Positions 55,992 to 60,529 of a stretch of DNA of 64,000 nucleotides are shown piece after piece (the first letter of the stretch is position 1; the number at the start of each line of letters is the position of its first letter). The position numbers were made by a program, and so were the translations under genes. The DNA comes from Chitiniphilus shinanonensis DSM 23277. GTDB taxonomy: Bacteria; Pseudomonadota; Gammaproteobacteria; Burkholderiales; Chitinibacteraceae. Below the pieces are notes generated by a model. It searched no databases. It was not told the DNA's origin and saw nothing but the letters and a program-made list of their open reading frames with translations. Location of the stretch: positions 1 to 64,000 of the forward strand of contig NZ_KB895341.1 in NCBI RefSeq assembly GCF_000374805.1, written 5' to 3'.

Positions 55992-56363
55992 TCAACACGG
56001 GCAGCGCCCACCCGCCGCGCCATCGGCGCTGGGAAAACGCGCCTCCAGGCAATGCCGGTAGAACTCCGCCCGGCTCATCGGCTGGGCATCCGGATGGCGC
56101 TCGCGCATGTGCGCCAGGTAGTACTCGTAGTCGTGGATGCCCACCATCAGCCGGCAGGTCTGCACCACCTTGCGCGCGGCGTCCTTCAGGCCGCCCAGCC
56201 AGTCGGAGCCCAGGCTGTAGCGCTCGAACGCCTCGCGGCTCATCGGCGCGCCGCCGCGATGCTGCGCGTGGTGCTCGGCGAGATAGCGCGCGTAGGCGTC
56301 GTCATCGTCCGGCGCGGGCGGCGGCGCGCTGCGCTCGCCCTTGAGGTAGGACAGGTCAAGCAT
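55992..56363 (-). CDS. YbdD/YjiX-family (DUF466) CstA-associated protein, with duplicated motif
   Basis: 123 residues. The C-terminal ~65 residues are the YbdD/YjiX domain (VVQTCRLMVGIHDYEYYLAH, then HPDAQPMSRAEFYRH). The N-terminal extension carries a second diverged copy of the end motif (YARYLAEHHAQHRGGAPMSR), absent from the ~65-residue enterobacterial YbdD. Overlaps the cstA stop by 8 bp, so translation is coupled. YbdD/YjiX are needed for CstA/BtsT pyruvate or peptide uptake in E. coli; the same is inferred here. Confidence 0.8.
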   Translation of the reverse strand: MLDLSYLKGERSAPPPAPDDDDAYARYLAEHHAQHRGGAPMSREAFERYSLGSDWLGGLKDAARKVVQTCRLMVGIHDYEYYLAHMRERHPDAQPMSRAEFYRHCLEARFPSADGAAGGRCPC

Positions 56364-58559: not shown

Positions 58560-58583
58560 GAAAAACGCCGCCGAAAGGCGGCG
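58560..58583 (-). terminator. Second terminator downstream of gdx/sugE
   Basis: CGCCGCC-GAAA-GGCGGCG stem with an A-run on the left, i.e. T-run for minus-strand transcripts; 170 bp beyond the gdx stop. Confidence 0.65.
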
Positions 58584-58689
58584 GCGGCGCGTTGGAAGGC
58601 ACGAGCAGCGTGACGACAAAACGACACTCTTCCGCGAGAGGAATGAGGCGTGGCGCGCCATGCACGCGAATCGCGCAGCCGTTGAAGCA

Positions 58690-58752: not shown

Positions 58753-59079
58753 TCAGGCGAGCTTGAGGCCGATGATGCCGGCCAGGATCAGCGCCACCGA
58801 GCCCAGGCGCCACGCCGTGGCGGGCTCGCCCAGCCAGAGGATGCCGAGGATCACGGTGCCGACCGCGCCGATGCCGGTCCAGATGGCGTAGGCGGTACCG
58901 ATCGGCAGCGCCTTCATCGCCAGCGCGAGGAAATACATGCTGGCCAGCGCGGACACACCGAACACCAGCGAAGGGGTCAGGCGGCTGAAACCGTGGGAGG
59001 ACTTGAGAGCGAGCGCCCAGACCACTTCCAGCAGTCCGGCGATCAACAGGTAGAACCAGGGGAGGATATTGGGGCTCAT
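58753..59079 (-). CDS. sugE: Guanidinium exporter Gdx (SugE), SMR family
   Basis: 108 residues, four TM helices. [20 protein letters not shown] contains the essential membrane Glu (~13-18 region); HGFSRLTPS and [17 protein letters not shown] are SugE/Gdx-specific, unlike drug-pumping EmrE. Ends GIIGLKLA like E. coli SugE. Exports guanidinium by proton antiport as an antiparallel dimer. GGAG sits 8 nt before the ATG at 59079; the longer frame to 59298 runs through the riboswitch. The guanidine-II-like leader confirms the assignment. Confidence 0.93.
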
Positions 59080-59104
59080 GGCCGTGCTCCGTTTCGTTGT
59101 CGAA

Positions 59105-59155
59105 TGGATGGGGCCGTCCCCGATGAACCGGGATGTGCGGTCGTCCGCACACCCT
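59105..59155 (-). promoter_or_regulatory. Guanidine-II (mini-ykkC) riboswitch
   Basis: On the minus strand, two hairpins with ACGR loops: P1 GTGCGG-ACGA-CCGCAC (59150-59135) and P2 GGGG-ACGG-CCCC (59121-59110), joined by a 13-nt linker. This is the defining layout of guanidine-II riboswitches, whose ACGR loops bind guanidinium. P2 ends 30 nt before the gdx ATG, consistent with control of ribosome access. A possible -10 (TATGCT) lies ~50 nt upstream. Confidence 0.85.
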
Positions 59156-59262
59156 GCGCCGAATGGCGACAAAAAAACGCTGCCAGCATACCGATTCGCA
59201 CGGCTGCCGGCCAGGCAGGAAGTCACACGCGGGGCGTGTGTACTCCCTGCCGAAACAGTTTG

Positions 59263-59352
59263 GAGCGGCCGACAAACCCGGCGCAGCGATCCCGGCAAGC
59301 CGCGCGCAACGCCGACGAGCGCGGCGCGCCCAGGAAGGTTTTGCCAGCTGCG
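59263..59352. repeat. Family C element, degenerate copy after metZ
   Basis: GAGCGGCCGACAAACCC at one end and GGTTTTGCCAGCTGCGC at the other are imperfect inverted copies of the family C ends. It abuts the metZ stop codon at 59354. Confidence 0.5.
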
Positions 59353-59353
59353 C

Positions 59354-60529
59354 TCAGGCGAGGCCGCGTTGCAGATCGCCGATCAGGTCCTCGGCATTCT
59401 CCAGGCCGACCGAGATGCGGATCAGCCCTTCGCGGATGCCGGCGGCGGCACGCGCCTCGGGCGTGATGCGGCCATGGGTGGTGCTGGCCGGATGGGTGAT
59501 GGTGCTGCGCACGTCGCCCAGGTTGGCGGTGCGGCTGATCAGCTGCACGGCATCCACCACCCGCCACGCCGCCTCGCGACCGCCCTTGACCTCGAACGAG
59601 ACGATGCCGCCGCCGCCCTGCTGCTGTCGCGTCGCCAACGCATGCTGCGGATGCGACGACAAGCCGGGGTAGAACACGCGCTCGACCTGCGGTTGCCGCT
59701 CCAGCCATTGCGCCAGCTTGAGCGCGTTGTCGCAGTGGGCGCGCATGCGGATCGGCAGCGTTTCCAGGCCCTTGAGCAGCACCCAGGCGTTGAACGGGCT
59801 GAGGCTGGGGCCGGCGGTGCGCAGGAACAGGTAGACCGGCTCCAGCAGCGCCTTGCTGCCGACCACCGCGCCGCCGAGCACCCTGCCCTGGCCGTCGAGA
59901 TACTTGGTGGCCGAATGCACCACCAGGTCGGCGCCCAGCTTCAGCGGCTGTTGCAGGATCGGGGTGCAGAAGCAGTTGTCCACCGCCAGCAGCGCACCGT
60001 GCGCGTGGGCGATCTCGGCGATGGCGGCGATGTCGGCCACCTCGGTCAGCGGGTTGGACGGGGTTTCCAGGAAGAACAGTTTGGTGTTCGGCTTGACCGC
60101 CGCCGCCCACGCGGCCGGGTCGGTCGGCGCGGCGTAGCTGATCTCGACGCCGAAACGCGCGAAATAGGTGTTGAACAACTGGATGGTGGCGCCGAACAGG
60201 CCGTTCGACGCGACCACGTGGTCGCCGGCCTTGAGGTGCGCCATGCCCAGCGCCAGGATGGCGCTCATGCCGCTGGCGGTGGCCACCGCGCGCTCGGCGC
60301 CTTCCAGCGCGGCGAGGCGGGTTTCGAACGCTTCCACCGTCGGGTTGGTGAAGCGCGAATAGATGTGGCCCGGAATCTGGTTGGTGAACTTGAGCGAGGC
60401 TTCCTCGGCACTGCCGACACAGAAACTGGAAGTCAGGTACATCGCGTCCGAATGCTCGCCGAACTCGGTGCGCAGGGTACCGGCGCGGATCGCCAGCGTA
60501 TCGGGATGCCACTCGTCGAAGTCGTGCAT
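59354..60529 (-). CDS. metZ: O-succinylhomoserine sulfhydrylase
   Basis: 391 residues, Cys/Met-metabolism PLP enzyme family, making homocysteine from O-succinylhomoserine and sulfide. Motifs: [53 protein letters not shown] and the PLP lysine in [18 protein letters not shown]. The GQGRVLGG after the lysine is typical of MetZ rather than MetB/MetC. In betaproteobacteria metZ commonly follows purF, as here. Confidence 0.93.

Follow-up and report, generated by a model that had tools for sequence, protein, structure and literature searches.

The leader of gdx (sugE) in Chitiniphilus shinanonensis DSM 23277 almost certainly carries a guanidine-II (mini-ykkC) riboswitch. We analysed a window of 64,000 nucleotides from this genome, and the model of the Guanidine-II family, RF01068, matches it end to end at 59152..59110 of the minus strand, with 40.4 bits for a cut-off of 32. 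When the whole window was compared with the 4227 families of Rfam, this match (E = 1.4e-4) was the only one to reach the gathering threshold, and RF01068 was found just once in the 4.15 Mb genome, at this very copy. Such a covariance search had been suggested by the earlier note, a reading of the bare sequence, and it bears out the class named there. From 59152 to 59110, the minus strand reads GTGTGCGG-ACGA-CCGCACAT, the linker CCCGGTTCATC, and GGGG-ACGG-CCCC (Table 1). The two GC-rich stems are each capped by an ACGR loop (ACGA and ACGG), which is how guanidine-II is defined in PMC5486947. The linker falls within the range of 7 to 40 nt given for the class in PMC7544219, and the element precedes a guanidine gene of the exporter or carboxylase kind, here gdx.

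These data also refine the anatomy proposed by the earlier note. Both minus-strand hairpins exist as described, one with an ACGA and the other with an ACGG loop. Both stems had been called perfect, which is right for the four pairs of P2 but not quite for P1, whose outer pair is a G-U wobble. The hairpins had been placed 13 nt apart, whereas only 11 nt separate the full arms. The distance of 30 nt between the end of P2 and the ATG of gdx (59079) is as measured before. The interval originally delimited, 59080-59155, does contain the aptamer, but the core spans 59110-59152 and the remainder is leader.

Table 1. Coordinates of the riboswitch, of gdx and of the flanking features in the window.
Feature	Position	Strand	Description and evidence
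metZ	59354..60529	-	O-succinylhomoserine sulfhydrylase; upstream neighbour, outside the switch
Hairpin P1	59133..59152	-	8 pairs, outer pair G-U; loop ACGA at 59144-59141
P1-P2 linker	59122..59132	-	CCCGGTTCATC, 11 nt; sequence and RF01068 match
Hairpin P2	59110..59121	-	GGGG-ACGG-CCCC, 4 pairs; loop at 59117-59114
Probable Shine-Dalgarno	59087..59090	-	GGAG, 7 nt before the ATG; best anti-Shine-Dalgarno duplex of the scored positions before the ATG
gdx (sugE)	58753..59079	-	108 aa, SMR family, Gdx subtype, predicted guanidinium exporter; family models, structure match, residues
Intrinsic-terminator-like hairpin and T run	58565..58590	-	3' of gdx; 2 overlapping sites (shuffles: mean 0.5, sd 0.8)

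By themselves, the loops carry little weight, because the simple pattern GGACGRCC-N5..30-GGACGRCC, which occurs once in the window, was also matched once in 3 of 100 dinucleotide shuffles (mean 0.03). A fortuitous pair of hairpins without function is nevertheless extremely improbable, given the covariance score, the site before gdx, the recurrence before orthologues, and the compensatory changes in relatives. To quantify the latter, we followed the 12 pairs of P1 and P2 in 16 gdx leaders of the GTDB family, with 500 shuffles and slid partners as controls. The cells of the two stems are paired in 97.9% of cases, and this falls to 41-60% when the partner is slid by up to 3 columns. Changes on both sides affect 26 cells, against 7.8 in shuffles; none of the 500 shuffles reached this number, which also exceeds all slid controls. 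The pairs showing such changes are 7 of 12, against 4.9 in shuffles, a count reached by 38 of the 500 and thus less strong than that of the cells. These counts by themselves already contradict the chance explanation. Most of the signal comes from P1 (both-side changes at 6 of 8 pairs), as P2 has them at one pair of 4 and is paired in 100% of cells. The two pairs adjoining each loop are invariant, the loops vary only in their last letter (A or G), and the linker varies in both length and letters. The stems of the RF01068 element therefore covary, P1 showing compensatory changes among relatives. In summary, this is an ordinary, well-supported further member of a known riboswitch class, located before one of its usual target genes.

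The product of gdx is matched by Pfam PF00893 and by the NCBIfam SugE equivalog (136.8 bits, cut-off 126). Its best alignment in the PDB is with Gdx-Clo (6wk5, E = 1.3e-30), an SMR protein of another bacterium, with 59 identities in 101 aligned residues. All five substrate-site residues that we inspected are kept: E18, W21, S47, Y64, and W67 correspond to E13, W16, S42, Y59, and W62 of Gdx-Clo. The roles of E13, S42, Y59, W62, and the Gdx-specific W16 are described in PMC7695847, where W16 is given as conserved in Gdx and replaced by glycine or alanine in Qac proteins. By the SugE model, the resemblance to Gdx-Clo, and these five residues, the protein classes with the Gdx subtype of SMR transporters, as had been proposed. 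Guanidinium/proton antiport is the predicted activity of the present protein, strongly suggested by the riboswitch class together with the gene family. The claim that this combination identifies the substrate without any assay thus stands as a strong inference and not as proof. The closest named relative is a protein of Chitiniphilus eburneus (92% identity). A second SMR gene lies outside the window in the same genome (L088, G000:C9:16898-17197); its product is 47% identical to that of gdx and still has the signature E and W of Gdx (TEIVWALSLK), but its SugE score of 86 falls short of the cut-off of 126, and the RF01068 search of the genome gave no guanidine-II match for this gene.

The association between riboswitch and exporter recurs in relatives. 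We found 22 matches of RF01068 in 17 of the 43 genomes of the GTDB family, 16 of them before a gdx orthologue and 6 before a urea-carboxylase-type (biotin carboxylase) gene, in line with the pairing of riboswitch and exporter on which the earlier note relied. Among the 26 genomes without a match, one (G026) has a clear guanidine-II motif when its sugE leader is read (L039; gdx 53% identical). It was missed by the family scan, which uses a stricter filter, so counts obtained by scans of this kind are to be read as minimum values. When G026 is included, the motif precedes all 17 family gdx copies with an identity of 53% or higher; those of at most 52% were checked through the RF01068 search only. 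In a sample of 300 genomes of the order, 49 match RF01068 (44 over the cut-off). From the 45 matches outside the family, we examined 25 new loci, where the downstream gene is sugE in 16 and the carboxylase in 9.

The six carboxylase-type genes of the family begin MF.KVLIANRG, and one carboxylase-type member (L084) combines biotin carboxylase and carboxyltransferase domains. For the 493-aa part, the highest-scoring model is urea carboxylase (818 bits, under the full-length cut-off). The models call these proteins urea carboxylase-like, and we take the riboswitch-linked ones to be probable guanidine carboxylases following PMC12186494. Guanidine-I riboswitches match in 6 of the 43 family genomes, the same six that have guanidine-II before the carboxylase, and lie ~4.3 to 4.4 kb before this guanidine-II element on the same strand (L053-L058 with L008, L009, L016, L018, L021, and L022). 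These six genomes thus have two different guanidine sensors at one carboxylase locus.

Nothing of the kind was detected in the present genome, where searches for guanidine-I and guanidine-III gave no match. A tblastn search of the window with a 127-aa biotin carboxylase piece found nothing, which agrees, for the riboswitch-linked type, with the earlier statement that the window has no carboxylase. This type was not found in the rest of the genome either: the best hit is a biotin-carboxylase-sized frame of 46% identity, and the same comparison gave frames of about 1200 codons with 61-100% identity in seven genomes. Given the results for guanidine-I, guanidine-III, and this carboxylase, export looks like the only recognisable guanidine response here, within a scope of guanidine-I, -II, and -III and the carboxylase. 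That the organism meets free guanidine, as was suggested, is plausible, but guanidine made inside the cell is equally possible according to PMC12186494.

With metZ on the upstream and cstA on the downstream side of gdx, both neighbours are shared with relatives: within 1.5 kb on each side, metZ is beside the gdx unit in 12 of the 16 family loci and cstA as well in 8. We therefore judge it unlikely that gdx is a recently moved resistance gene. Among the best 5000 records of a plasmid collection, the protein identity is 60-80% in 15 and lower in 4985, and no plasmid record covers 80% of the 448-base stretch of leader and gene. Phages gave a protein match in 34 records, 3 of them at 60-80%. After cstA, a small gene (55992-56363, minus strand) matches the KCU-star selenoprotein family below the cut-off (62.1 vs 85 bits); its product ends in Cys-Pro-Cys and is possibly, to judge from this match and ending, a cysteine version of that family.

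Several transcription signals were sought between metZ and gdx. No terminator-like site was found in this interval, in keeping with control of translation and not of transcription; regulation by a leader terminator is rejected on this ground, despite a T7 run at 59177-59171. This run lies between the riboswitch and a long inverted repeat able to fold into a hairpin, ggcagggagtacacacgc-ccc-gcgtgtgacttcctgcc, present once in the genome, at 59214-59251 on the minus strand. The repeat, which follows metZ, is possibly its terminator, without a close T tract. A repeated or mobile hairpin at 59195-59265 was also considered and rejected, as a search of the genome returned only its own copy. The search for sigma-70-like promoters between metZ and gdx gave no match. 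Upstream of P1, 9 of the 16 leaders have a -10-like hexamer with 4 of 6 positions matching, where shuffling predicts 4.6; three leaders have none, and the hexamer is unconvincing as a promoter.

We take the ligand, the ON direction, and the translational control from the published class, which is described as a translational ON switch in PMC12186494, PMC9094411, PMC9561414, and PMC9300104. By this analogy, the element at 59110-59152 would have guanidinium as its ligand, bound by both ACGR loops, and P1 and P2 would be joined by loop-loop pairing. P2 would thereby be kept folded and the ribosome-binding site of gdx left free, such that rising guanidinium would lead to more of the exporter. We accordingly read the element as a probable translational ON switch, by which accumulating guanidinium would increase Gdx. 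What the sequence data themselves establish is the class of the RNA, the family of the gene, the association of the two in relatives, and the conserved pairing of the stems. We are confident of the mechanism at the level of the class but hold the detail of the platform loosely, the least certain point being which bases hide the Shine-Dalgarno without ligand.

Two well-described systems help to frame this point. The guanidine-II element of gdx/sugE in Escherichia coli (RF01068) has the same two GC-rich ACGR hairpins, ACGA in P1 and ACGG in P2, a short linker, and gdx downstream. It differs from ours by its linker (13 nt vs 11 nt) and neighbours (ecnB and blc vs metZ upstream and cstA downstream) and belongs to a distinct genus; here P2 ends 30 nt before the ATG. 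The element of Pseudomonas aeruginosa, of the same class, precedes a gene for a multidrug-resistance-type transporter, and its translational response to guanidine was measured with a K1/2 of 2.2 mM (PMC9561414).

Which bases would hide the start here? We folded the leaders from P1 to +21 and repeated this with 0, 30, 60, and 90 nt of upstream sequence. The results suggest, as a tentative possibility, that P2 itself does so: its 3' half would pair with the Shine-Dalgarno region and its 5' arm with the first gdx codons, both would be released once the ligand holds P2 together, and the linker would not act as anti-Shine-Dalgarno. In 14 of the 16 family gdx leaders, the 3' half of P2 makes 3.4 to 7.0 expected pairs with the 16 nt before the ATG, with P1 formation of at least 0.81 and P2 formation of at most 0.11. 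In the family carboxylase leaders, on the other hand, this pairing is seen in 0 of 6 and P2 stays formed (0.8 or more) in all six. In 11 of the 16 gdx leaders, no more than 5% of the shuffled downstream regions pair as well, and 11 of the 16 keep at least 3.2 pairs at every upstream length. The pairing is most evident in L005, L006, and L019, where GAGGCCGU is the exact complement of ACGGCCUC and where forcing P2 opens the start region from 0.10-0.20 to 0.40-0.53. For the gdx leader of E. coli K-12, two of the three lengths tried give this topology as well.

The controls support this P2-based hidden state only in part. When downstream regions were swapped between aptamers, pairing fell from 4.45 (native) to 3.68 (between genera), and 660 of 20000 permutations reached the native value. 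Swapped leaders pair nearly as well because the C-rich P2 can pair with many G-rich Shine-Dalgarno regions. Two family leaders are misfits, L015 (linker and flank) and L017 (flank). Others depend on length: L003 loses the pairing with 60 or 90 nt upstream, and L002 and our own locus (L001) weaken at one length. At the latter, P2 formation stays at or below 0.16 for 21 of the 30 lengths chosen, whereas among the others it reaches 0.89, so the fold depends on the transcript start and the extent folded. Moreover, enforcing P1 and P2 leaves the openness of -14 to +3 in the own leader at 0.52 (0.51 when free) and shifts that of the start region by only -0.03 to +0.10 in 13 of the 16 leaders, own included. 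At most loci, then, folding by itself fails to yield a translational switch.

Outside the family, the order set contained 25 leaders, of which 22 were scored (14 gdx and 8 carboxylase); L066, L069, and L082, with no start assigned, were excluded, and P2 was scored in place of P1 in L061 and L081, which have an atypical P1 loop. P2 pairs with the Shine-Dalgarno region in only 7 of these 14 gdx leaders, and 3 show linker pairing instead, one of these (L071) at shuffle level. P2 formation is at least 0.80 in 5 of the 8 carboxylase leaders (L075, L079, L080, L081, and L083); in the remaining L063, L067, and L077, two values are about 0.56 and one is 0.04. A synonymous-recoding test of the start-codon arm gave mean percentiles of 0.21 in the 16 family gdx leaders and 0.38 in all 31, and of 0.27 (6 family) and 0.38 (14 in all) in carboxylase leaders. 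It is therefore favourable in the family and weak over all, and does not single out the gdx leaders.

The platform proposed for E. coli in PMC9300104 and PMC9094411 makes the linker between P1 and P2 the anti-Shine-Dalgarno, pulled away as the loops kiss. Read by eye, UCCCGGUUC of the own linker could face GAAACGGAG, with a bulge and a mismatch. However, linker pairing with the Shine-Dalgarno region is 0.0 at all four upstream lengths in this leader, and 15 of the 16 family gdx leaders have at most 0.1 such pairs without upstream sequence. In the family it is adopted by L015 at all lengths and by L003 at two, and by no other leader; the linker is moreover variable there in length and letters, and we consider this arrangement unlikely here. 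A flanking platform of the P. aeruginosa type, in which the Shine-Dalgarno region is covered by sequence preceding P1 to form the P0 helix, is also improbable at this locus, even if mutations in the proposed P0 strands rendered the P. aeruginosa switch constitutively ON (PMC9561414). The own leader has 3.7 expected pairs of this kind with 60 nt upstream but 0.3 and 1.2 at 30 and 90 nt, respectively, so that such pairing is predicted at one of three lengths. Flank pairing is found in L017 (11.8) and L015 (6.6-6.8) with at least 30 nt upstream, and 9 of the 16 family leaders have at most 0.1 pairs at every length.

If one extends the P2-based state to many gdx-linked leaders, i.e., most of the GTDB family and possibly E. 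coli, then P2 would be half sensor and anti-Shine-Dalgarno, with its 5' arm on the start-codon region, and the carboxylase-linked copies of the family would keep P2 folded and work differently. This generalisation is based on folding models and we regard it as rather doubtful; we make no claim that such a state is unpublished. If P2 does serve both as a half of the sensor and as the anti-Shine-Dalgarno, the switch would need no separate expression platform. Two differing models of the platform are in print, the linker of E. coli and the P0 helix of P. aeruginosa, and comparing leaders of gdx with those of the carboxylase is an inexpensive way to test how this small switch gets to the ribosome site. 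As for the organism, an uncharacterised SMR gene gains a probable substrate and a probable inducer, and a Chitiniphilus-type bacterium joins those in which, among the elements searched, export looks like the only recognisable response to guanidine.
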